Source: Eutreptiella sp. 'Long Island Sound 2002'
Taxonomy: Eukaryota > Euglenozoa > Euglenophyceae > Eutreptiales > Eutreptiaceae
Assembly (NCBI GenBank): GCA_964036045.1
Contig: OZ038385.1
Location: 24,822,853 to 24,886,852, forward strand
Direction: 5' to 3'
DNA length: 64,000 nt
Shown here: positions 1 through 60,604 of the stretch, piece by piece
Layout of the letters: each line of letters begins with the position of its first letter
How positions within the stretch are numbered: the stretch's first letter is position 1
Position numbers and translations under genes: made by a program
Notes under the pieces: generated by a model
What the model was told of the DNA's origin: nothing
The model's database searches: none
What the model saw: the letters and a program-made list of their open reading frames with translations, nothing else

Positions 1-546
1 CATGGCGGGGCACCTGTGCTTTGCTATACCATGATAACGCTCAAGACAGGTGGGACGCCCTGTAGCTTAGCCCCACATAGTACAACCAGAAACCTTGGCG
101 TGCACTGCCCTGCCCTGCACTGCACTGCACATGTGAGGGATAGCAGCATCAATGAATGTGGAAGTATGTGATGACCCACGCACTTCATAATGTGGAACCC
201 CCCCACCTCAGCCCAGTTTTCCTGAAGCTTCTCATTTCACCACCACTTCAGCTCCATGCCTTTTGTGTGGACAACACGCTACATTTACCTTCCCGAATTT
301 CCCTGGGCACAGTGTACGGGTGTACCTGGTGCACTCGCATGTGGATGCCCAGTTTAGGAGGGAAACGCTGCCATTGTGACTAGTATATCATTAATATTCT
401 TTTTCTGAGCACATGCTGCAGCATAACTCCACATACACAACGTCCAGGGAGGCTCAGGTGCCTCCACGAAGATGTGCAATGCTCACACCCCTGCCACCCA
501 TTTTTGTCGTCCCATCCCACCCATCCTCTCTGCCCACCCATTGGGT

Positions 547-646
547 GGGGGCGTCGTGTGCGCTGCTGGGCACGCAGAAGCACGAAACGTCAAAGTGGGG
601 GCGTCATGTGCGCTGCTGAGCACGCAGAAGCACGAAACGTCAAAGT
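547..646. repeat. 50-bp tandem duplication
   Basis: Two adjacent 50-bp copies (547-596 and 597-646) differ at only two positions. Each begins with GGGGGCGTC and contains GCACGCAGAAGCACGAAACG. Confidence 0.9.
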
Positions 647-717
647 GCATTGTCCAGGTTACACATAACACGTGACAGCATTGGGCATATTTGTACCCCC
701 CCCTTTCCCAAGCTACT

Positions 718-766
718 GTCTTGTCCAGGCTACAGCGGGCGTAGGGACTGTATTAATTTGGGGCCC
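718..766 (+). repeat. Dispersed repeat, copy 1 (partner 1278-1320)
   Basis: The core 'GGCTACAGCGGGCGTAGGGAC' here and 'GCTACAGTGGGCATAGGGACC' at about 1287 are the same sequence with scattered substitutions. Both are followed by a variant of ATTGATTTGGGC. This is an old direct duplication about 560 bp apart. Confidence 0.6.
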
Positions 767-1154
767 AATTTAACTCGGTACCAATTTTGCTGCAACCAGA
801 TAAGACAAGAGTTTAGGGTTATAATGTCACATTTGTAGGCTGAAGGACATTTGCGTTGCTCTTGTTTGCCCAATGGTGCCCACAAATCTTCATTTGAGGG
901 GCCCTGGGCATTATTCTGCCCCTTTGCTTGCACCAGCACATCAGTTCCCATTTCCATGTGCTGTATGCATGCTATGGCGGTGCACCCTGTGCTGTGCGAA
1001 AAGTTGGCTGTTTCTTGCCCAAGCAGAGGCACATTTTCCACAGTCTGACCTGCCGCCGCTTGGTAAGTGAGGAGAGCGCTGTTTCAAAGAGAATTTCGGA
1101 CAGTCCATCTGAATTTTTGGACAAGGAAAAGCTGCAACACCTGGGTTTTCACAG

Positions 1155-1268
1155 TTTTGAATTGATCATGACCTGTAGGTGGGTGTTTTTCAGGGGTGCT
1201 CCCGGGATAAACACCGTGACAATTGGTGCTGTGCCCGCCCTGTGCCCGCACTGTGCAAAAACACCCCC
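1155..1268 (+). repeat. Dispersed repeat family A, copy 1
   Basis: About 110 bp matches 15763-15872 in the same orientation. Shared blocks include TTTTGAATTGATC, TGTAGGTGGGTG, CCCGGGATAAACA and CACTGTGCAAAAAC. A dispersed, diverged repeat; no coding content is recognised. Confidence 0.75.
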
Positions 1269-6480: not shown

Positions 6481-9400
6481 ATGTCTTTTGTTTTGCGAAT
6501 GAAGCCAGTGATCGGCCTCTCCGCATTGGATGCCGCTGATGGCGGCTGCGACGAGTACCTGCTGCCCAATGGTGGGCCAGGTGCGCGGACTGCGTCCGTC
6601 ATTGATGTGGCCTTCCCGGTTTCGATGGCGTTGGCTTTGGGCGCCGTCGTCGGACTTGCAGCATCCCTTTTGCCCCCGCTACGCCCCGCTGCCGGGCCCG
6701 TCCAATTGTCCCAAGTGGCAGCCCACAAACTCAAGGCGCCGACGATTCAGGGCTCGTCCAGGTCCCTGACCATTGACGGCTCCGCAGCAAACCAAATCCC
6801 GGGTGCTGCTCTACGCCGGAGCACAAGTATGGCCAGCGATGCGCTGTTTGCAGACGGGGCTCAGTACGGCGTTGGGGCGAGGGCCCGGGAGGGCCTTGGC
6901 GCGCGGGCCGCGCCCGGGCAACTGAAAAGCAGCGTCGCATTTGGCGTGCTGGCCCTCAGTGGTTGGCTGGCAGCCACCCTCGCATTGGTACGCCGGTGGC
7001 CTCGCCGCCGCGGCGAGGCTGACCACCAGGAGGCCTCAAGTTGGGCGATGATGGCAGCGCAGCCCGAGGACGATAAGGACTATGACGTGTTCGAAGAGTA
7101 CCAGGCGCTGATGAGGAAGGCAAAGGACAGCCCCGATGATGACTGGAAGGACGACGATGAGGAGGAGGACGAGGGGGACGCAGCGTCTGCCACGAGCCTG
7201 GGCGAGGAGATCGGCGATGCGTTCATGAAGTATGCCATGAGCGTAATGCTTGGGAGAGCACTGCCAGACGTCAGGGACGGGCTGAAGCCGGTGCAGCGGC
7301 GCATCCTCTACGCAATGAAGGGCCTCGGGCTCGGCCCAGGATCTGGCTTCCGCAAGTCAGCGCGCGTTGTGGGGGAGGTACTGGGCAAGTACCACCCGCA
7401 CGGGGACACGAGTGTCTACGAGGCAATGGTACGGCTGGCTCAAGACTTCGTGATGTCGGAGATGCTTGTTGACGGCCACGGCAACTTCGGAAGCATCGAT
7501 GCAGATCCTCCCGCCGCTATGCGGTACACGGAATGCAGGCTGCGGCCGCTGGCATCCGCGGCGCTGATGGAAGAGCTCGATGCCGAGACAGTGGACTTCG
7601 TTCCTAATTTTGATGGATCAGAGGAGGAGCCTGTCATCCTCCCGGCGCGCCTCCCACTCCTGCTCATCAACGGCGCCTCCGGCATTGCCGTTGGTATGGC
7701 CACTACGATACCGCCCCACAATCTCGGCGAGGTCTGCGACGCAGCGTTGCTGGTCGTTCGCGCCCGCAAGGCCTCTGCCGCGGACCTGGGGGGCCCGCCG
7801 CCGGACGAGCGGGTGACGGACGCTGCTCTGCAAGAGGCACTCCCGGGCCCCGACTTCCCGACGGGGGGCCTGATCCTCGGTGTCGAGGGCATCGCGAAGA
7901 TGTATGCCACGGGGGAGGGAAGCGTGGTGATGCGCGCGCGCACGAACATCGAGACCATCGGGAGGAGGCAGGCCATCATCGTCACGGAGCTGCCGTATCA
8001 AGTGGTGAAGGCGGAGCTGCTGGGCAGAATGGCGAAGGCCGTCAACGCCGGCAAACTTCAGGGCATTGCCGACCTCCGCGACGAGAGCGACCGGCAGGGC
8101 ATCCGGATCGTCATCGAGGTAAAGAACAAGGCGGACCCCACCGTCCTGCTGAACAACATCTTCAAGTCTACCCGCCTGCAAACGACCTTCTCGGCCCGGA
8201 TGGTGGCGATCGCCCACAGCGTGGAGGGCCCACCCGGCGACGGCACCGGCGCCGTCGCCCCGCCGCAGCTGCGGCCGGAGCCGCAGGTCCTGCCGCTGCG
8301 CCGGATCCTGAACGACTGGCTGGACTTCCGCTACCAGTGCGTGGTCCGCAGCAAGCGCTGCGACCTGCGCAAGGCGGAGGCGCGGCAGCACATCCTCCGC
8401 GGGATGCGGATCGCGACGGGCCGTATCGACGACGTGGTGAGGCTCGTGCGGGGGTCTGCGGATGCGGGGGGGGCCAAGGCGGGCCTGTGCCTGCCCGAGG
8501 ACCAGACCGACCCCTCCACCGGCGTGCGGGGCTTTGGGCTCAGTGCCACTCAGGCGGATGCAGTGCTCGCGCTGCAGCTCAGCCGCCTGACGGCTCTGGC
8601 ACAAGACAAAGTGGAGGAAGAGTATGAGAAAGTGACCGCGACTATCAAGTCCCTCGAGGGCCTCCTCGGGTCCGATGAGCAGATCTACGGGTACATCGAG
8701 GAAGAGGTCGTGGCACTGCGGGGGCGCTTCGCGCGCGCGCGGCGGACCGAGATCCTGACGGATGGGAGGAAGCTGGAGGACGAGTTGCCACCCAGCAACG
8801 ACCGCACAGTCGTCACTGTGACCGACGCGGGCCTCGTCAAGCGGATGTGCGTGAGCGACTTCCGCACCCAAGCAAACCGTGGCAACGTGGGCACGGCGGT
8901 GGTGCAGAACGAGGCCACCATTGCCCACTTCTTCGCCTGCAATACCCACGACATCGTCTTCTCGATCATGTCCGACGGCCGGTTATATATGACCCCCGCC
9001 TTCAAGATCCCGCAGGGCAGTCGGAAGGCCCGGGGGACCCCCATCCACGCGGTGCTGGCCACGCCCGACACCTCGGCCTCGCTCACGTCGATCTTGGCGA
9101 TCTCCCGGGATCTGCTTGGCCCCGGCGACGGCGGCGGGGCGAGTGGAGACGAGGGGACGGAAGGGGGCGCGCAGGGAGACGAGGAGGAGGAGGGCGGTGC
9201 CGAAGTGCGCGCCGCAGTGCAGGGCCCGTACCTCGTGCTGCTAACGAAGATGGGGTACATCAAGAAGCTGCCGGTGTCGTATGTCGGACGGAGGGGGGGG
9301 CGCGTCATCGCCTTGCAGGCGGGGGACGCAGTCTGTCGGGCTCGGATCTGCACCGACGGCGACGATCTGGTGATCGGGAGTACCCAAGGAATGACCCTGC

Positions 9401-9855
9401 GCTTCACAGAGAGCGCCGTGCGGCCACACATCACACGCGCAACGCGTGGCATCCGCGCGATGAAGCTTGGCGGTCCTCATGAAAGCCTCGCGGATCTCGC
9501 GGTCCTCAGCCCCGACGCCAACAATCATCTGCTGGTGGTGACCAGCCAGGGGTATGGCAAGCGAGTCGATAGTGACTTATTCAGGCCGCTTTCGAAGTGC
9601 AATTTGAGAGGGGTCAAAGCAGTGCGCCTCCGAGAGAGTCGCGAGGGGGGCGAGGTGCCCGCTGACACGATGACGGCCCTGAAGGCGGTCGGTGATGATG
9701 ATGAGTTGATATTAATTAGTTCCGACGGCAGTGCGGCCCGGCTGAAGTCTCTGAACATCCCGGCACAGTCGCGCACAGCGCGAGGGGTGGTGTTGCGCAA
9801 ATCCTCAGACGACCCCATCAAACAGGTGACTGTAGTCCCGAGGGTTGAAGATTGA
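6481..9855 (+). CDS. gyrA: DNA gyrase subunit A, probably plastid-targeted
   Basis: This intronless 1124-codon ORF encodes gyrase A, the DNA-cleaving subunit that with GyrB introduces negative supercoils. Residues from about 240 are typical Gyr[19 protein letters not shown], the helix with [13 protein letters not shown] (about 303-314), and the catalytic tyrosine in MRYTE (Tyr349, codon at 7525). The breakage-reunion domain, coiled coil and C-terminal beta-pinwheel follow. It is longer than bacterial GyrA (about 850-900 residues) because of a roughly 235-residue N-terminal extension. That extension has hydrophobic segments at about 41-66 and 151-170 (the second followed by RRWPRRR), a Ser/Ala-rich linker, and an acidic stretch ([10 protein letters not shown]). 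A signal-plus-transit presequence for a complex plastid is inferred. The ATG directly follows an in-frame TGA, so an upstream spliced start is possible only if an intron ends here. Coding GC and third-position GC are far above the flanks. Confidence 0.93.
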
Positions 9856-38100: not shown

Positions 38101-41100
38101 CTGCGACTGTTGCTCAGAGCCGTGGCGCGCTGATTAGGCAGTATTCCGTTTGTCACGAAATGCCACCCATCACTAGTCATGAGGCGCTCGCGGATCACGA
38201 CCGCCTTCATTCGACACATTCGACACATTGGCTACCGACCATGAAAAGACAACATGTCCTTAAACATGCAAACCCGCTTTCCAATGCGGAGGCACTTGTG
38301 CAATTGCATGGCAAATGCCATGAAATGGAAGCGGAAACTCACGTTCGTGACGTACCCACAACCGGGTGGGCACGTGAAGGAGGGTTGTTTGGGCCCTCTT
38401 TTCGCATCCTTGCGATGCATACCTTGTTTGGAAGATAATGAATCTCGGAAATGTAGCTTGCAGAACTTCTTCAGCCGGCAGCTCTCACTCACAGCAATCT
38501 CTTTGACCTCGTGACTTTGTGGAAGCAATCACGTGGGAATGCACAAGGCTATATTTGGTAAGCGGGGTGGGCTGGCGACAAAGCAAGCAAGCACAACACC
38601 AGACTCAAAGCTGCAACGTCATAACGTAGGTTGACGGAGTACTCAGTCTACCAAGCACAAACCGTCCTCGGAGGTCGTTTCATGTTATCCTACAGATCTG
38701 CTCTCCGCCCCTGCCTTTCGCTTGAACACGATTACTAACCATATTCTACGTATTATTCATCTCTGATCTCTCGTCCTGTGGGCGTGCACTAACATCCATC
38801 CCTAAACCAGTTCTTATGTCGTGCCACGTGCATGCATGCATTATCCATGTCATGCCCGGATACCGCACAGCATTGTCTACACGTGGAAACACATTCGTCT
38901 ATCCAGTGCAAAAACTGCGTCATACTAGCAGCTCACCACCCTGTCTAAGCGTAGGCAGTCGTACAAGCGCCACAAGGGTAGGTGCCACCAACTTTGTGGG
39001 AAATCCTGCTTGCCAACACCTTTTATGAGGGATCCGAGGTTGTGTAACAAGTGTGCCTTTTGAAAGGCATAACAGATGCACTTACATATTAAAGAAGGGC
39101 GTGTGGGGAATCCTTGTGGGCCCACCAGTCCCACTGCGGACTCCCGGCGTTGGGGAAGGGCAGTGCGTCAGTTGTACCTTTACGAACTAGCGAGATCCTT
39201 TGTTGAGGGCCAATACAGAAGTACTGTGCCACGACAATCGGCCCTTCCCCCAAGTGGTGAGCGATCTCCAATCATCCCATTGCAGTTGGATCCCACATTA
39301 GTGGTTCGTCCAGGAGTGCAGTGGGAATGCGAGGCAGACGATAAGGGGCATTCGGGTAAGGGAATGTGGCACTCCCCAGGAGCCTAGTGACAGGGGAGGA
39401 AGCACACGGGCGGAGCACAAGAAGGGGGTGAGCCCACCGAAGTCTTGGTGTCCTCACCCACGCAGAGTGCGGAGCCCAGGTGGAATGAAAGGTTGAATGG
39501 CTGGAAGATGTGGGTAGGGAAGGGGACAAGGGAAACACCTAGAGAATGCAACCAGGGGGTAAAAGCATTTGGCAAGAATCGAAGTGGAAAGCAAGCGGGG
39601 GGGGGTTTGGCATGACGCCATGGTGTGTTGTTCTCGTCTGCGGGAGGGGGGGGGTGTCAATAGTTGAAGGACGCATCAAAGTTGAGCCCACGTTGTTTGG
39701 TTGCTTTTTGTGATCGCTATGTCCCTCTTCCATGTTAACCCATGTTGGGGGACAAAAGCTATCAATGAATGAATGAATGTTAGGGGATTAGATGCAGTTG
39801 TATTTGCGACATCATGTTACTCCCATTATCTTTGTCCTTGTCCACCTTTGGGCCACTTGGGTGGGTTTGGAACGGTCCTATAGGGTGTTCCGAGCCGCGG
39901 CTGCTTTGACCCCCCCACCCCCCCCACCCCTCCCCGATGGCGCTCGCCGGATACGCTAGATGAGGCCGGTTGTGCCCAAGTGAGGAACGGCAGGCTGGGT
40001 GGTCGGATTTGGTGATCTGGGTAGTTGGCTGGCCCGACCCCGGCCTAAACTTGAGCATGCCAAGCCGCCCTTTGCCCCGACCCCTCAACCTCCTTGTCTT
40101 GCTGCTACTTTGCTTCACCTTGCCCTTGCTTTTTGGCTCCCTTGTGGGCAAGGGTCCATTGCTGACCTGGTATAACGGCATGCTTGTCCTCCTCTTACTT
40201 GGTAATATTTGTCAAGGAAAGACGGGAGCAAACCCAAGCCAATCCCAAGCAGAGCATCACTCCTCGCTCAACCCACGAATGCATGGTGCATTGTTGCGGC
40301 AATCCACGACACAAAGGTACCATGCACAATCCAAACCTCATGGTCATTAACTTTTTTTGCAAGCTCCAGAATATACGTGTGGTGCAAAGGTTGCACAAAA
40401 GTAACTCCTCTCATGCCAAAGGTAAAGCTAGCCACATGAAAGTAACTACTGTAGGTGCATCAGCATGACACAATACAAAGCGCTCTCAAGCGCACAACCT
40501 GGCAGCATATGTGTGAGGAGTCACAATATGCTACAACCGGGCAAACAAAGGTTTCTAACGACGTATTTCCATGCTGAAAGCTGAAATGAGTACACAATCA
40601 GTATGTGGTTTAAGGCAACTCGTTTCGCAATTTATAGTGATCTTGTTTTTTGGGTGCATCACCAAAAGTGAACCAGAGCCGCCCATCTTGGGATTACCGG
40701 GGCTTTGCGCGGTGCCGGGCGCGGCGCGGTGCTAGGATGTGTTGCGTGTGCTCTGTGTGTCTATTGTGTGTCTCAAATAGAGGTCGCCGCTCTAATTGAG
40801 GACCAATTTTGGGCCGATATTGAACTTTTGTTGGAGACCCTTTGAAACTTGATACTGATGCCCCTAGCGATGTCCCAATTGCCCCTCCTAGCTCAGAAAC
40901 ACATGAACGGCGATGGACTGACATGAAATTGAGGCACATACTTCATTCAACAGACCACCAAACCCAAACATGCCATGTGAAATGAAGCTATTGTGGTGTT
41001 ATAGAACTAGGTAGTGCACTTGTCCCTTGCGTTGACTGGTGTCGGTTCCTCTGTCCTTCGATGCAAACGAACACAGCAAAAGAAGAATGAGACACGAGAC

Positions 41101-46784: not shown

Positions 46785-47688
46785 TTGCTTTGTGTGCTCG
46801 CAAGCCTTGAATTGGGAAAGGATGTTGAAGATCTCCGCGTAAATCTCACCGTACTCCATGAGATGCCCTTCTTGATGGAAGAGAATCGAACCTCGGAAGC
46901 TGGGTTGGTGCGAGCGAAGGCAAAGCGCATGGACTTGGAAGAAAAATGCGACGCTTGGGAAAGGAAATGCAATGAATGGGAAGCGAATTATGAAGAGTTG
47001 CTAAAGACGAGTGCGGAAGCGTGCAACACGTTGCTTTTGAAGGATAAGGCAAATGAAGTGCATCGTTCAAATCTTCGTAGTGCCGAGTTGGAATGTCAAG
47101 TTTCTGCAATGTATCAGCAAGACGTTGCCGCCCAATTAAAAGCTGCATCAAGGTGTCGTGTACGAAGAACAAAGTACTTCTTGAAGTGGCCGAGGTTGAG
47201 CAATCTCAAGATCTGTTTTGGGAGGAGTAGAGGGATGCAATGTATCATGCATGTCTTTGCAGTTCCGAGTCGGACGACCAAGTTTGCGCATTACGACAAC
47301 TGGCTACGGATGCCATTCTAGAGCGCCATGAGGTGTGGGAAGACCGTGAATGGGCAAGGTTGAGTTCCTTGAGTTATGAAGAACAAGGGGCTCGCCGGTA
47401 TGTTGAAGCGATGGAGGCCGAGCACTGTCGGGACGTGGTTTCGAAGTTGCCAGATGCACTCTTGAAGGAGAGGAAGGGTGAAGTACATCATGCAAATCTT
47501 CGTAGGTTCGAGCTCTACGGTCAAGTTGGCGCATCACAACGACATTTTTTTCAAGCAGCTTTAGAGCTCAGCATGAAGAACAAGAAGCTCGGCAAAATCT
47601 TGTAGCGGCCGAGATGGAACTATGTCGTGATATGGTTTGGGAGCACATGTGGAAAGCAGTTTCGTTGCACACACTGTGCTCGAAGTAG
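46785..47688 (+). pseudogene. Degraded coiled-coil coding region with internal repeats
   Basis: Plus-strand frames 46785-47321 and 47240-47605 encode charged, helix-forming sequence. LLLKDKANEVHRSNLRSAEL in the first and LLKERKGEVHHANLRRFEL in the second are clearly diverged copies of one repeat about 450 bp apart. A third trace (AEMELCRDMVWEHMWKA) follows at about 47613. The frame changes between copies, and a TAG (47686-47688) ends the series just before the GIY-YIG frame. I read it as a decayed gene for a repetitive coiled-coil protein, or as the 5' part of the retroelement. Family unknown. Confidence 0.45.
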
Positions 47689-47697
47689 CCCCGTACC

Positions 47698-49407
47698 GTG
47701 TTGCAACAAAAAGGATTTGTGCTTGATTGTGAGGAGGAGCATTTGCGTGACATGCTCAAAGCAAAGGGTGATCATGGGCTGCAAGAACTGCTTGCATGCA
47801 ACACTAGACTGTTGAACAAGCTCGAGAAGGGAAAGGATTGTGCATGCCTACTAACTGATGCCAAGGACTCACGCCTACGCCGGATAGCCCGCCTAGCGAA
47901 GCTCCCACTCACCTGGAGGCTTGATGAGGTGGGTTCCTGGGTGTATACGGTGTGCGGCCCGTACCCCCCCTACGTAGGGCAAACCGGATGCTTCCAAAAT
48001 CAGAGATCCTGCTTAGATAGATATAGGGAACACCTACAAAAAGCCAAGGCGCTGGCCAACCATTTCTCAGGTATCCGCCACAGAAAAATCAGAGCAGCCA
48101 TGGGATTCGGAAAACTCCCCTCCCTTGCTCGCATGCTTGCTCGCGAGGGTCCAGCAAGAGTTACCATTGTGGCGCTACAAGACGTGGCTGATAAACAGGC
48201 TGGTGCCATTGAACGTTGGTGGAACACAGTCCTAGGCCAGACGCTGAATCAAGTTACCCCCTTTGGTGGTATCGACGCATTCAAAGTCGAACGGCTATTA
48301 GGAGCTCACTCAAAGACCATTTCCATGGAAACTGCCTCACTTACAACAATGGCACAATCATTGTTACGCAACAACTCCTGTAAATCCAATCGTGAGATGG
48401 ATGAACGGTGGTGGTTCCTAGCATGTGTTGCAGGCAAGATCGAACCCAATCTGTTTGAACGGCTTTTTAAACACATTGCGAGGTTAACCAAGAGTAAATG
48501 GAATCTTACGGTGAAACGAAGACTGGTACTGCGAATTCCTTGCTTTGACCCCACGATACAAACACAGGTGAGAGGGATCTGTATTGATGCTATGACCAAG
48601 CTCATGATCCCGAGGGGCCTCAGAGATTGGTTTGCTAAATCCATTTGTGTGATCCCGGTCCCTTTTATGACAATACGCGATGCCTTGAGTGGAGGAGGGC
48701 AGCAGAATGCGCCTAAAATCACAACACACATCCCGGAGGAAATGCGATGTTCTGATTCAAATTTCTGTACCTGGGTCTCTCTCCCACGGGAACTAGGAGC
48801 CTGGAAACTGGAAACTACACCTGCAGCACTCCAACAGGTATGTGCAGAGGCTCTGAGCCGTATTAAAAAGCGATCATGTATGTGCTCCCACATGCGCAAG
48901 GGCTCACCAAATTTTGGCGGCTTTCTTGACCACGTGGTCATTCGATCTCCGTCCGATTGGTCCCATATCCTGGAGCCCCAACCTGTACGTATTTTTACTG
49001 CAAATGCTAGAAATCAATTCTTCCCGGACCCAGGTTCACTCAGACAGCAGTTGACAGACATGACTACTGCCCTGCAGGAGCTGGCAGTTTCACAGGTTTC
49101 TGTCGAACGGTGTCAGTTTGTGGCGAAAGGTATTTTCGAGGGAGGGATTGTAAAACAGACAGAGTCCACACTATGGGAAGCAATGCGAACCACAGTGGCC
49201 CAAGGCGTCCAGTTAGCCCCATGGCTCAATGGTTCACAGATCTATGGTTTGCGGTATGATGTCTCAGAGTTACAACTGAGGGTGACTGTTTGGGACAAAA
49301 AACTGACAAAATTAGGTGGTCTGTGCTCCCAGCTGTATGATACTCGTCTGTTAGAAGTCCTGAGCTATGCAAGAAGGCACACAGCAGTTGTAGGGCACGG
49401 GAAATGA
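47698..49407 (+). CDS. GIY-YIG endonuclease and N-terminal RT-associated region (ORF1)
   Basis: The frame opens after TAG 47686-47688. The first ATG is at 47752 (the listed start is a GTG), so the true start may lie upstream by splicing or in a fused frame. Counting from the GTG, the GIY-YIG core is at residues 82-188: VYTVCGPYPPYVGQTG, arginines and His in LDRYREH, then the metal-binding Glu172 in AGAIERWWN followed by the family's LN. This nuclease would nick target DNA for target-primed reverse transcription. Downstream are LVLRIPCFDP, a CMC pair with nearby His (SCMCSHMRK), and a helical stretch to ELQLRVTVWDKKL. The TGA at 49405-49407 coincides with the left edge of the inverted block, so the stop is a product of the inversion and not the natural end. 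Length 569 codons. Confidence 0.7.
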   Translation: MLQQKGFVLDCEEEHLRDMLKAKGDHGLQELLACNTRLLNKLEKGKDCACLLTDAKDSRLRRIARLAKLPLTWRLDEVGSWVYTVCGPYPPYVGQTGCFQNQRSCLDRYREHLQKAKALANHFSGIRHRKIRAAMGFGKLPSLARMLAREGPARVTIVALQDVADKQAGAIERWWNTVLGQTLNQVTPFGGIDAFKVERLLGAHSKTISMETASLTTMAQSLLRNNSCKSNREMDERWWFLACVAGKIEPNLFERLFKHIARLTKSKWNLTVKRRLVLRIPCFDPTIQTQVRGICIDAMTKLMIPRGLRDWFAKSICVIPVPFMTIRDALSGGGQQNAPKITTHIPEEMRCSDSNFCTWVSLPRELGAWKLETTPAALQQVCAEALSRIKKRSCMCSHMRKGSPNFGGFLDHVVIRSPSDWSHILEPQPVRIFTANARNQFFPDPGSLRQQLTDMTTALQELAVSQVSVERCQFVAKGIFEGGIVKQTESTLWEAMRTTVAQGVQLAPWLNGSQIYGLRYDVSELQLRVTVWDKKLTKLGGLCSQLYDTRLLEVLSYARRHTAVVGHGK

Positions 49408-49768
49408 CTCTACTATAACTCTGGAGGGCATGTGATTTGTAAGATACAATATCCCTCCATTTCAGGACCGGGTTATCAGGATCATACTCCGTAGATTTCC
49501 ACTTAGGGAGTGAAAACATCGCTGGGGCACTGGGGTAGCGTTTATGGGGCTGGGGGTCCATAAAACATTCAAACAGAAAGTCGTCTGTATCTTCCTGTAA
49601 AGCAAAACAGGCTCTGCCAAGACGACGTTGCAGCATGTCATTAATGATTCCACATTCCCGTGCACGCTTGATGACCATGTGTGTAATTGCGAGCCTTGCA
49701 ATAGCAGGTGAATCAGCCCACCCCCACAACTGAAAGCGTGAGCCAAAAATAGTAGACTCTGCCTGGGC
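49405..49768 (-). pseudogene. Inverted RT segment carrying motif 2
   Basis: On the minus strand, this block is open and reads RFQLWGWADSPAIARLAITH ... LQEDTDDFLFECF ... WRDIVSYKSHALQSYSRV. The R-x-I-V-S-Y-x-x-H pattern is a typical RT motif 2 and should precede motif A by about 50 residues. ORF2 starts with motif A about 29 residues in. On the plus strand the same bases are full of stops. Short inverted repeats GGAAA (49400-49404) and TTTCC (49769-49773) flank it. With these edges, turning the block over would keep the reading frame at the left joint and be off by one at the right. Confidence 0.6.
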
Positions 49769-51235
49769 TTTCCAAACATGTTGGGTGTGCGTGATCAAAT
49801 TAAGGCAATTCAGCGATTTGCTGGCGGTGCGACCTCGGTTAATTTTAGAGAGCGCGACATGGACGACATGTTTTGGCAAATTGAACGGTCAGAGGCTCTG
49901 CAAGCTATCAGTTGGGCCATAGACAGAGCACGCTCAGACGCTCGTGGGAAGACACTGTGGTTTAGTATAGCCAAAGGCCTGGAGAAAGACCTAGATAGAT
50001 TTGGAAAAAATTCTGCGAAATCTTTTGTAACACTCTCGGAATCAGAAGTGCTGCGGTTTGTAGAGTACGACATGACTGAAAACGTATTCCTCACTGTTGG
50101 TTCCCTTATATTATGTCAGGGTGCGAGAGGAATCCCCATTGGGGGATTTCTCTCAGCACAAATTGCCGAGATATGGGCCTGCTGGAAAGAGTTCACCAGC
50201 CTTTTTGGTGAAAATGTCCAGTCTGCCCAACGACAGCTTACCGACCTCTTTGCTGATTTTTCAAAGACACAGGGTATCCCTGTGCAGATTACACTTCCAG
50301 GGACAGTTGGGCTTATTCACCACTCCCCTGATGAAACAGTGCTAGCCCATGACATGTTTGTCTCCAGGACAGTGCACCTGGTTACTCCAGAGAGATTGTG
50401 CCAGTCAGGTTTCTCAGGGTGGTGGTCCCCTGCAGACAGAACCTTTGCCACCGCCGAAGTTGCAGGCCACCATGTACGCTTCATACATACCCTCCCCTGG
50501 GATGGAGCGGAGGGGGGACGATTGCAGAGTATTGTGCGGCATTCAACACGGAAAAATAAGCGCGTGGTGATGCAGTTTTTTCGAAATTTTGATGCGCTGA
50601 ATGGGGTGGTGGGGGAGATCTTGTCTGCAGAGGCTGAGGGTGTTGATACAGGCCCCTCATCTCAGTCCAGACCAGTGGTCATCATGTCACGATATAGGGA
50701 TAATATCTACTTTGCTATGGCGGGCATCTCCCCCTTTCTCGAGGCCCCCACTTTATTTTTGATTGAGCAATTGACTGCGGTGTTGTACAATATCCCACTG
50801 AAGTGGGAACCCCATGGGAGTGTTACTACGTGGGGAGAAGCATCTATGCTTCTTGATCAGCATATGGGATTTTTCAAGCACAGTTTTGGTCTGCAGAAAA
50901 AAGGAGTTGTTCAAAAACTCAGTGACTGGGTCACAGGGACAGTGACAGCAGAGTGGGAAAACTGGGTCGACGCCCACTCGCCCAATGCACGGATGGTGTT
51001 GCGCTCCCTTCTGCCCTCTTTGCTGTATAAGTCTCTCCTGTATGCCTTGAACAAACGAGATGTCGTATCCAACATGCGAACACTTCTGTGGGGCCTTGGT
51101 GTGAAAAGATATCCAGACCAGTGGTGGAGACCTGCCCTGCATCGCTTCTTTCACAGATTCCGGCTTCACAGGGTAGTAGGTTTTAAAACCATGATGTGCT
51201 GGTACCAAGAAGGGCGACAGGTTCTCAGTGTGTGA
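49742..51235 (+). CDS. Reverse transcriptase core, motifs A to E (ORF2)
   Basis: Open from 49742 (stop at 49739-49741), first ATG 49778, ending TGA 51233-51235. From the ATG: motif A at RERDMDDMFWQI (Asp27/Asp29), motif B at QGARGIPIGGFLSAQIAEIW (114-133), motif C at SRYRDNIYF (about 304-312), then LKWEPHGSVTTWGE as motif D/E-like. The catalytic second aspartate of motif C is Asn. About 175 residues separate B and C, far more than the 40-70 usual in RTs, with a Trp/His-rich insert (GFSGWWSPAD, HHVRFIHTLPWDG). The C-terminal third (PSLLYKSLLYALNKR, VGFKTMMCWYQEG) would be a thumb-like region. The frame is intact, so loss of the upstream part by inversion may be recent. Confidence 0.72.
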   Translation, partial: AKNSRLCLGFPNMLGVRDQIKAIQRFAGGATSVNFRERDMDDMFWQIERSEALQAISWAIDRARSDARGKTLWFSIAKGLEKDLDRFGKNSAKSFVTLSESEVLRFVEYDMTENVFLTVGSLILCQGARGIPIGGFLSAQIAEIWACWKEFTSLFGENVQSAQRQLTDLFADFSKTQGIPVQITLPGTVGLIHHSPDETVLAHDMFVSRTVHLVTPERLCQSGFSGWWSPADRTFATAEVAGHHVRFIHTLPWDGAEGGRLQSIVRHSTRKNKRVVMQFFRNFDALNGVVGEILSAEAEGVDTGPSSQSRPVVIMSRYRDNIYFAMAGISPFLEAPTLFLIEQLTAVLYNIPLKWEPHGSVTTWGEASMLLDQHMGFFKHSFGLQKKGVVQKLSDWVTGTVTAEWENWVDAHSPNARMVLRSLLPSLLYKSLLYALNKRDVVSNMRTLLWGLGVKRYPDQWWRPALHRFFHRFRLHRVVGFKTMMCWYQEGRQVLSV

Positions 51236-51468
51236 CCTCGTTCTCTGTGCCAGACGCTTTGTTGGTTGAAGTGCCAGTGGCGAGTTCGCTGCGGCGTTTC
51301 CCACGGTGTCTGTGCATGGAGACGTCGTGACCAACTAGCCCTATGCACATGGCATGAATGGCATGGTTGAGGACGTTGGTACCAAGGAGGACGACAGCTT
51401 CTCGGTGTATGACAGTTTTCTTTGCTGGATCTAACCCTATTGACATGACATGCATGACACGGTTGAGG
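51197..51468 (+). repeat. Local duplication at the retroelement 3' end
   Basis: GCTGGTACCAAGAAGGGCGA (about 51199) recurs as GTTGGTACCAAGGAGGACGA (about 51377). CATGGCATGAATGGCATGGT (about 51348) recurs as CATGACATGCATGACACGGT (about 51443). The end of ORF2 lies inside the first copy. Confidence 0.75.
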
Positions 51469-52989
51469 ACAAGTGAGATTGTTTGTTTCACATAATCTGG
51501 TGTTAGGGTGCAAGATACGAAAGACGGTGGACTAAGATGAGTAGAAGAACGTTGTTTCCCATACTTGATCTTCAGTCTATTGCAACTGATGAGTGTTTTG
51601 CTGCTTTGCTGCTCGCTGTAAAGCCCCCTTCTACTTGAACAACCTAATGCAGAGCGTGTTGCCGTGCTCCTCGCATCCACCGGCGTACCCAAATCTTGCT
51701 TTTCTTCATGCCTGATCTTTGGAGTGGCATAGGACACATGAAATGATGCCACTTGTGTTGTGGGCTGACTATGATGTATGCATGTGACTCTTTTGGTGTG
51801 TGGACATAATGATTGTCAGTGGTAATGAGGAGACGAAAGACCAGGACGAAACACGTGTCAATGTACCTAGCAAGGTCATGGTGTGCCAAGAACCCTTTGT
51901 GTTGCTCTGATACTCTATGACTCCTATGGTGTCGCTTCACGTTTGTTGCAGTCTATTGAGCATATCCATGTGAGCAGTGCCCTTGTCTTGTAGCCAAATT
52001 AGACAACACATGAACGTGAACGCGGCCGTTTCCCAAATTTGCGTGCATGGATTGGGTATGGATGGCCGTGGATACGGAAGCCCTTGTTGTGTTGCATTTG
52101 AATTTGCGTTGCTTCATGTCATTTTGCTTGTGCTATGTTGTGTTGTTTTTGTAGTTTTGTGTTATGTTGTGTTGCGTCGTACTTCTAACGTGTGTCAGAG
52201 AAATGCACTGTCATGTGCCGTGGACACAAACTCAATCATTTTGGATGTGAAGTGTAGATTTCCTTTGCATTGTGTAGATTGCCTTCATCATGTCCACCAA
52301 CGTGCTTCCACAAAGCAAGTAGCACAAAAAAATACCGGCCGTAATAGTATGGCTGTAAATGAGTGTGGGATTTTTGGAAGGCTGGCAATGATTCTCCAAA
52401 CACCGCAGCGCATGTGTGCTTGCAGCTTTGCCGACAAAAATCGCGTCCATAATACACTAAAGCAAATTTATAACAGTGTGTGCAATAGTGTGTAATGGTT
52501 TGTCTAATAGTATATCTAGGTCATGCTCGCGATGGCCGTTTACCCATAGGCATCAACAACATCAAACACACACCACTCCGTTGATCTTCTCAATAATATC
52601 CTTTTGGTCCACACCGGCATGTAGCGCCGGTCCCGTAGCACTCACTACTTTCACTCCATCGCATGGAAGGTGTTGCAATTGCTCTTTGCAGTAAATTGGG
52701 GCTTTGTGATTGGAATTGAGCCTCAGGTTGTCGGAGATCTTACTACCCAAGAAGGGGGTCTAAAACGATCGTGGTTGAATCGCGAAAGACGGATGAGTAA
52801 CAACGTATGCATGTGAGGGCAAGCACATTTGCACTTTTTCACAAGTCATTGTGCGCTGATTCCGCTCATTTGGATATTGCAACGGTACATACGGACCTCA
52901 ATGACTTGCACTTGGCATTCACGCTTTGTGTTTTGCATATCAAGACAGATCATAGCTATTAATCAATTCTACAGCTCCTCAAATGCCAT
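51469..52989. other. No gene seen
   Basis: T/G-rich patch at 52090-52170 (repeated TTGTGTTG). No domain in any frame. Confidence 0.4.
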
Positions 52990-57737: not shown

Positions 57738-59670
57738 GTCTGTGCCCCCCTTTCCCCTCGTCTGTCCCCAGTGCTTTCTTCTCCAGGGATAATTGCCCCA
57801 ACAGGTGACGCGGTGACGCTACTGCCAACATGCGGCGTCGTTTGGGGCCAATTGTCCACATAAGCTTAGGTGGTTGGAGGCCAAGAGGCTACGGCTGTTT
57901 GGAGTAATGGGAGCAGAAGTACACAGGGGAGTTAGCCCACAGGGCCATAGAGATGCGCAACACAGAGCTGGACCGGCCCATGCTGAGAAGGGTGGTAGCA
58001 GAAGCCACCTAGACAGCGCAGAGCCGCCACCGGGGGTGGGGTGGGGACTGGCAGCCAAGGTACCGAGGAAGGGAGGGGCCCGTCGCTTGGCGCAGTGTTA
58101 TGCTTTTACTCAGAGCCAGTTTTGGTGCACCCAGGGTGGCAGTCTTCACTCTTGTTGGGGGCAGGAATTGGTACAAGCCGGAGGTCAAGAATGTGGCTCT
58201 GTGAGGCCCACAACAAGCCCCCGTGCATGGCATGCGTGGCTGTGGTGTGGGGCACCCACGGGCAACACCCACAAGGCGCATGCTATGCTTGCCACACAGC
58301 GGCCAAGAGTCTGCGCCATCATCTTAGTAGGCAATCGCTAAGTGGCAATTGGCTGCAAGCACTGGCGAAAGTGGGAAGTGGAGTGCCCATTCAAGCGGAG
58401 GCGAGCGTCAGCCCGAACGGCGCACCATGGGCAGGGATGCTGATCACGAAACCTTATCCCATGGGAGGTTCTCGTGAAGGCGAGAGGCTTGGCAGCCCAG
58501 CTGCCAAACCCAGCGTGGCCTGTGATCATGTATGAGTGCTTACCTTGCTGACCCATGCTGTTGCACCTGATTAATGCGGTTTTCCTACTAGCAGACCCAC
58601 ACACACGCACACAGCCACACGTACACACACACACACACACACACACACATGCACAGGCGTCCTTCTTCCCAACTGTCGTCTCCAATACCCGGTGCATAAT
58701 TCCCCCAACAAACACCCCTTGTGCTCCCCCTTCTGGAGCCCTGCCCCCCCCTATTGTTCTCCCATCCCCATGTCCGTGACCCCTCCTGCATCGAAGTTTG
58801 ATGCCGAGAGCTTGCATGCATTTTAGGTGATGCTATTTTGCGGTCACCCGCGCTCTCTGGTAATCACTTTGTGTGTTTCACATAGCATGGGGTTGATAGA
58901 TAAATGGCTTTCCATGAAAGACATGGATTCAAGTGACACATTCATGCATCATGTTTCACATTTTGCTTTCGATGTGCGATGCATTTTCGAGTAGTGTGCG
59001 TGCTGTAGCCCGTCGGTCAGATGTAGCCTCTACGACATACACTAAACATCCAAACCACCCACGACCGGTAAGTAGGGGCAAGGCCGTCATGCGTACTTCC
59101 CCTTTGGGACGTCTCACATGCATTGCCAATGATGGTGGCAATTTTTTGGCAGCATCCCGAACGGGGAGAGGACTTGTACCAAGTCCTCAATCAATCATGA
59201 TAGAGTTTGTGGCCATGCATGGGTGTGGGTGGTGGCTTCATGAAGGTACACGCTCTCCTCCCATGTCTCCTTTTTGCCCTGCCCATGTTGGAGACGGTCT
59301 TTTTGCTCCCACAGCTTTCTACAACCCAAATACAGCAAAATTTTGCACTTGCAACAACGAGACAAAAAACTACTGGCAGTCCAATTTTTTTTTACTAGAC
59401 TACCATTTCCACCAGGTGTTGGTGAGCGGGGTCAGTTTAGGGGCATCCCCTCTATCTGCCTTTCTGTTTCTCTCCCTCCAGTTCAAAATGTTGGGCAGTG
59501 TGCTGGAGGAATACCTTTTCTTCGGCTGCCGTTGTGATGAGCAATGTAGAGGACAGGGAACATGGTGTTGCATTGGAGCAGGCACCACAGTTAAAACCCC
59601 AACAAATCACACTTGACGGCATTGACCAATGCCCAGCTTGCCGCCCTACTCCTGGTTGCCCTTGCCTCAG
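57738..59670 (+). other. ABCG intron 2 (1,933 bp)
   Basis: GTCTGT...TGCCTCAG. Contains a CA microsatellite at 58623-58649. Open frames at 57874-58341 and 58933-59616 have no domain and are taken as noise. Confidence 0.8.
58623..58649. repeat. (CA)n microsatellite in ABCG intron 2
   Basis: About 13 CA units with flanking imperfect CA repeats from 58595. Confidence 0.95.
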
Positions 59671-59906
59671 GTGAAGGAAAGCCTCAAGTTTGCTGCCTGG
59701 CTCAAGCTGGGGGCCCTGTCCAAATTGCAGCGTGAGCAGGTCATTGAGGCTATGATCGAGGAGCTTGGGTTGTCCAAAGTCCGCAACAACCTCATTGGCA
59801 ATGCCAATCAGCGCGGAGTGTCTGGGGGTGAGCGCAAGCGGACGGCTGTTGCAGTGGAGCTCCTGTCAAAGCCCTCCATTCTCTTCCTGGATGAGCCCAC
59901 GAGCGG
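59671..59906 (+). CDS. ABCG half-transporter, exon 3 (signature and Walker B)
   Basis: Begins VKESLKFAAWLKLGALS and continues to the ABC signature VSGGERKR and Walker B ILFLDEPTSG. The last codon is split (GG|GTCC) and completed by exon 4 as Gly, giving the expected TSGLDS. 236 nt. Acceptor CCTTGCCTCAG. All spacing is typical of ABCG proteins. Confidence 0.94.
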
Positions 59907-59993
59907 GTCCTGCCACAGCACTCCTTCCTCTGTTCCTCGCGATGCACGTCTGAAACATCCCGTTTGCTTACGAATGGGGGCTGCACTGTTATA

Positions 59994-60604
59994 CAGGGGG
60001 GGGGGGTATTTCGCGGGGGAATATTTCGTTGTGGGAAATTTTCGTATTTCAAATGTGTGCGAAATTTCGCGCTCAAATTTCAGGCGTGCGAAATTTAGCC
60101 ACTGGGGCGCATTTTCACTACCTCTTTGTTCTCTTGCTTTTGAGCTTCTCAGTATGGGAAGAGGATGGAGGCGGCCCCTGAAATCCGGATTCCCTCCCTG
60201 GCGAGGGTGTCTATACGCCCACAGTCCACGCGGATGTCCCAGAGACGGGGAAAGGCTCCGGGGAATCAAGGATCAGGGTCAGGGATCAAGGAATCCCAGT
60301 TAATGAGGGAATTGGTGTTTGTTGTGCCCCAAAGCAGATGAAGGGGCTAGTGCTGGATTGCCTTCGACCTTGGGGCATGGGATTGAGATCCAGATCATGC
60401 AGGAACCCCCTGAAAGTAAAGAATGCAATCCTGGAAGCCAGCTGGAATTTGGCAGTGCAAAGCAGGAACTGCTCAGTAGTAAACAGTACAATTCTGGAAG
60501 GGTGCGAAATTTCCCGCGGGATTTTCAGGCCACTGTGCGAAGTAAACCCGGTGCGAAATTTTCTCATGCGAAAAATTCCCGGTGCGAAACCCCCCCCCCC
60601 CCTG
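59994..60604. mobile_element. 611-bp MITE-like element with poly-G termini and TA flanks
   Basis: Starts CAGGGGGGGG and ends CCCCCCCCTG, with TA on both sides (59992-59993; 60605-60606). Inside the poly-G, both ends carry imperfectly matching arms rich in TTTCGC, GGGAAT, TTTTTCG and GCGAAATTT, over about 80 bp. No coding content. It sits inside ABCG intron 3, only 87 bp past the exon 3 donor. Confidence 0.7.

Follow-up and report, generated by a model that had tools for sequence, protein, structure and literature searches.

A block of about 404 nt (49356-49759) lies inverted within a reverse transcriptase (RT) gene of Eutreptiella sp., as judged by comparison with eight near-identical copies of the element from this genome (sisters, about 97-99.8% identity) and with all eight database proteins that contain the matching part. 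The window, that is, the whole stretch of 64,000 nt that was analysed, is located on contig C8 of the genome that we searched (2.28 Gb, 2205 contigs). We conclude that this micro-inversion is authentic and precisely mapped, that it resides in a dead retroelement copy and that it is ordinary in kind. Taken alone, it is the scar of a rearrangement in a mobile-element copy that is itself dead. Small inversions can rarely be mapped to the nucleotide at both ends; here the presence of near-identical copies in a single assembly makes this possible, and a second independent case in the family makes the formation of inversions of about 400 bp a countable question.

The inverted block and its joints

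In the initial annotation, the RT part missing from the interrupted plus-strand frame, including RDIVSY, had been read on the minus strand at the same place, and the interruption had been put at 49400-49773. This reading holds, while the block itself has to be moved to 49356-49759. The features of the copy are the following.

47849-51645, + strand: 5'-truncated telomerase-like/Penelope-like retroelement copy, including the inverted block (similarity to near-identical sisters)
47849-49355, + strand: upstream forward part of the open reading frame (97.5-99.4% identity to eight sisters; P0022 over the shared part)
47938-48253, + strand: region which we take, from its motif, to be GIY-YIG-like (VYTVCGPYPPYVGQTG ... 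RYREHL ... ERWW..LGQTLN; motif level, conserved in relatives)
49348-49365, no strand: left joint CTGTTAGA/AGTCCTGAGC (one net extra nucleotide relative to the sisters)
49356-49759, - strand: inverted block, predicted RT fingers (STIFGSRF ... KWKSTEY ... KWRDIVSY ... LHSSG; sister protein and DNA)
49748-49767, no strand: right joint AATAGTAGACTC/TGCCTGGG (nothing lost)
49760-51235, + strand: downstream forward part of the open reading frame, with RT palm, thumb and C-terminus (P0022)
49856-49882, + strand: DMDDMFWQI, presumably motif A, by position in the alignment
50129-50176, + strand: GIPIGGFLSAQIAEIW, which we take to be motif B-like (alignment)
50687-50710, + strand: motif C-like SRYRDNIY, with Asp-Asn for Asp-Asp (16 relatives, alignment A3)
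51236-51645, + strand: 3' untranslated end, recurring upstream of some sisters in a pseudo-LTR-like, partial tandem fashion (locus comparison)

The upstream (+), block (-) and downstream (+) pieces were handled separately in the protein comparison. The downstream part retrieved 19 relatives and the upstream part seven more, whereas P0022 as query added no new ones, giving 26 proteins in total. In P0022, the closest of them, 248/251 (upstream), 132/133 (block) and 480/491 (downstream) residues are identical, and the order is ...YDTRLLE, then STIFGSRF...LHSSGL, then CVGFPNMLGVRD. The part encoded on the minus strand is thereby confirmed as the missing RT part, which belongs between the two plus-strand pieces. 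Eight of the 26 proteins contain the block; in all eight the downstream part continues after it in one polypeptide, and five have the upstream part in front, although in P0017 only weakly (E = 0.003). The remaining 18 proteins are without the block and silent on orientation, and inverted copies would show in a protein survey only as fragments. The end of P0009 resembles the block in another frame; this was rejected as an inversion, being on the sense strand and after the downstream part, which points to a tandem copy or a gene-model join.

The DNA of the sister copies gives the same picture. When 49000-50200 (1201 nt) was used as query against the organism's own genome, the window itself was the only one-piece match among the best 40 of 72 candidates, while the near-identical sisters matched as 1-356 (+), 356-761 (-) and 756-1201 (+). 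In 9 of 11 sister loci the upstream, block and downstream pieces follow each other in this order and share one strand; in the other two, which have no upstream match, the block agrees in strand with the downstream part. Sisters with the window's orientation were absent among the copies seen, so that the proposal of a small, clean inversion inside an RT gene finds backing in sister-copy protein and DNA alike. Identity to the eight sisters is 97.3-99.8% for the block and 97.0-99.6% for the flanks, and since block and flanks are equally close, a single recent rearrangement fits.

The left flank can be followed unambiguously up to 49355 and the right one from 49760 onwards, which places the joints at 49355/49356 and 49759/49760, with block ends uncertain by 1-2 nt. 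Between the flanks there are 404 nt here versus 403 in the sisters measured, that is, a net gain of one nucleotide and no loss. Within the 1-2 nt ambiguity of the breakpoints, the simplest reading is that a single left-site base was duplicated and none was lost. It had also been noted that, with the block turned over, the left joint would be in frame and the right one off by one; the latter observation fits the net extra nucleotide. The 5-bp inverted repeats GGAAA/TTTCC, which had been thought to flank the block, are displaced from its ends: GGAAA (49400) falls within the block, 44 nt from the left joint, and TTTCC (49769) begins in the right flank, 10 nt past the joint. Nor are such repeats remarkable, as a pair of 40-nt stretches drawn at random from the window have an inverted 5-mer in common with P = 0.64. 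The longest inverted match that lies 15 nt or less from the actual joints has 4 bp (AGTC, chance P = 0.89). A candidate 6-bp inverted repeat at the joints, AGAGTC/GACTCT, was dropped because the sister DNA reads AGAGTC and AAAGTC, a 4-bp match.

The host element and its family

The retroelement had been described as otherwise intact, which does not apply to a copy that is 5'-truncated at 47849. Similarity to near-identical sisters starts at this position and ends at 51642-51647. Eight sisters of the same subfamily extend further 5', where the window copy stops; in a 1651-nt stretch, 241 nt are common to these eight sisters and the window shares only the last 55 nt. Some sister copies retain stop-free stretches of about 1,600 codons. 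The window copy has no intact RT frame: the open frame 47689-49407 runs by chance into the inverted block, and the downstream open frame spans 49742-51235. No target-site duplication was found next to the element ends, the best candidate having 7 bp and lying 62 nt past the 3' end. Three diverged 69-nt repeats immediately precede the element, at 47034-47527 (+), in a region with long open frames.

The gene is a member of a divergent RT family of retroelements. Its predicted fold is closest to that of telomerase, and the fingers part is contained in the block. In a PDB search with the model of the whole P0022, telomerase was the closest structure, and by this model the RT of the family is of the telomerase/PLE type, a first likeness to Penelope-like elements (PLEs). 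The RT family has no Pfam match, in which it differs from PLEs. The viral fold library gave no match at E <= 0.001, and no relatives were confirmed in viral contigs, phages or prokaryote genomes.

A second likeness is the partial tandem arrangement, in which the 3' end of the family is repeated upstream, a trait described for PLEs (PMC11167929, PMC3846280). Among 20 fetched 9.5-kb loci, the 3' end is also found upstream and on the same strand in L024, L029, L036, L039 and L040, and among the best 40 of 540 candidates, upstream pieces starting near 50734 occur on contigs C19 and C1. Several sister-locus matches begin near 50734-50758, as if a pseudo-LTR of about 0.9 kb (50734-51645) started there.

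PLEs with an N-terminal GIY-YIG occur in green algae and protists. The GIY-YIG-like motif of this family is N-terminal, in contrast to canonical Penelope/Poseidon elements, whose GIY-YIG is C-terminal (PMC11167929). Beyond the motif level, GIY-YIG received no support from Pfam, PDB profile search, hhalign to T4 SegA or fold, and the model of this part is poor (pLDDT 44.7). Regarding ribozymes, the hammerhead motif is common, not universal, in PLEs; no Rfam family reached the gathering score within the window, where the copy is 5'-truncated. On the strand opposite to the element, 38931-39345 (-) carries a diverged fragment from the C-terminal part of this family, with 35-55% identity to P0005 in several frames.

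Origin of the inversion

As regards mechanism and timing, we infer two breaks followed by end joining. A 5'-truncated telomerase-like (Penelope-like) copy would have been inserted, already unable to make the full protein owing to its truncation. Either at insertion or afterwards, a pair of breaks some 404 nt from each other would have freed the piece with the RT fingers, and end joining would have restored it back to front, with no loss and one net extra nucleotide. We regard this insertion of a truncated copy, followed by two nearby breaks and the joining of a flipped piece, as the probable origin of the inversion.

A second inversion was found in the same family, with a query centred on this region. 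The copy L042 (C11:27554200-27559200) is collinear with L036 (97%) except for 415 nt that are turned over; one base is used twice at each joint, which gives a net +2 nt and no loss. It is an independent event with ends that differ from those of the window inversion, and the two inversions partly overlap in the element. Little or no loss and no long end homology are the signature of end-joining inversions used in the comparison, and both are seen in the window and C11 copies. Small inversions made by end joining are thus resembled here in the ends without repeats, in the lack of loss and in the gain of at most one nucleotide per joint; they differ in that here an element family is concerned instead of unique DNA, with two independent cases among the copies seen. 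That loss-free exchange with at most one extra base per joint and no repeats occurred twice speaks for two breaks and end joining, rather than for recombination between repeats. Random breaks, on the other hand, do not predict the directly repeated GCGAG noticed by inspection at both C11 breakpoints.

The frequency of such events was estimated with an uninverted reference, which gave 43 matches corresponding to 39 copies, 31 of them covering at least 900 of the 1201 nt. These counts are lower bounds, as the best 40 of 42 candidates were scored. The script returned 37 clusters in total and 30 with at least 900 nt; the figures of 39 and 31 arise because one cluster on C10 and one on C5 each comprise two copies. 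Opposite-strand pieces were present only in C8 and C11 among the 39 copies seen. Likewise, when 23 sequences, the window and 22 fetched loci, were all compared with each other, the pattern of an inversion within the element appeared only in the window and L042. Two other candidates were rejected. The stretch C9 10248215-10249312 runs opposite to the adjacent sequence because a further copy has inserted there (87% versus 68% identity to L036); the locus, L043 (C9:10247900-10252300), contains an L036-subfamily copy nested in opposite orientation inside a more diverged one. A +/-/+ pattern of 42-45 nt between L033 and L032 consists of self-overlapping matches in upstream sequence outside the window-matched part.

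A template-switch origin, already raised in the initial annotation, is the first alternative to consider. During replication or reverse transcription, the polymerase would jump to the other strand, copy the block backwards and jump back. The similar size of the two inversions (404 and 415 nt) would agree with it, as would the abundant inverted structures that are reported for Penelope elements and ascribed to self-priming (PMC3846280). However, in both events the sequence resumes in the flank no more than 1 nt from where it left, and there is no net loss. On general reasoning, two independent jumps would usually leave a deletion or a duplication, and a return to the right base would be a coincidence each time. 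We therefore disfavour this origin and judge it unlikely.

An assembly or read-chimera artefact is still less probable. The evidence is the assembly alone, and repeats that are 97-99% identical are prone to misassembly. Nevertheless, the differences from each sister are scattered over flanks and block alike, as expected of one copy; the joints are clean, and the same pattern with other ends is seen elsewhere. Moreover, a flip of 404 nt would not follow simply from the misjoining of different copies.

There is very little to recommend twin priming, or another inversion at the time of insertion as in LINE-1. The copy is 5'-truncated, as products of TPRT often are, and it resembles LINE-1 5' inversions in having an inverted stretch within a 5'-truncated retroelement copy, but about 1.5 kb of forward sequence precede the inverted block. 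Products of twin priming, as described for LINE-1 (PMC2912911), have the inverted segment on the 5' side and a non-inverted 3' segment after it, whereas here the inverted segment is internal. A programmed or recombinase-made switch between two orientations, also suggested initially, is equally remote: despite a loss-free exchange and a second inversion in the family, no inverted repeat longer than 4 bp is present at the joints, the two inversions have different breakpoints, none of the 39 copies seen shares the window's inversion, and the copy is truncated.

Recurrence, motif C and neighbouring genes

The recurrence of such inversions and the Asp-Asn motif are the points of interest that this analysis leaves. 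Two independent cases (404 and 415 nt) with different ends were found among the 31 copies that cover at least 900 nt of the 1.2-kb stretch. It is conceivable, though doubtful, that a specific process causes loss-free inversions of about 400 bp again and again in copies of this family. Such a process might consist of paired cuts by the element's own endonuclease, or of breaks at a fixed chromatin spacing, followed by end joining, and if it exists, its traces would be preserved in the several hundred copies of this genome. The likeness in size, the partial overlap and the GCGAG repeats at C11 are noted here as observations on two cases.

RTs in general have [YF]xDD as motif C. At the motif C-like site RDN of this family, DN is present in 15 of the 16 relatives with letters there, DG in one and DD in none, a further difference from PLEs; the placement as motif C is suggested by the hairpin of the model and by position, not by residue-level superposition. 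For the RT of a retroelement, lack of the second catalytic Asp would be unusual, and this evidently recently multiplying element (sisters 97-99% identical) has Asp-Asn where Asp-Asp is expected in RTs.

Elsewhere in the window, 6481-9855 (+) holds a single-frame gene for DNA gyrase subunit A with an N-terminal extension of about 235 residues, perhaps a plastid-targeting leader, which together with the size of the genome points to a photosynthetic protist, and 59626-60303 (+) holds a fragment of an ABC transporter ATPase of the white/pigment permease type.
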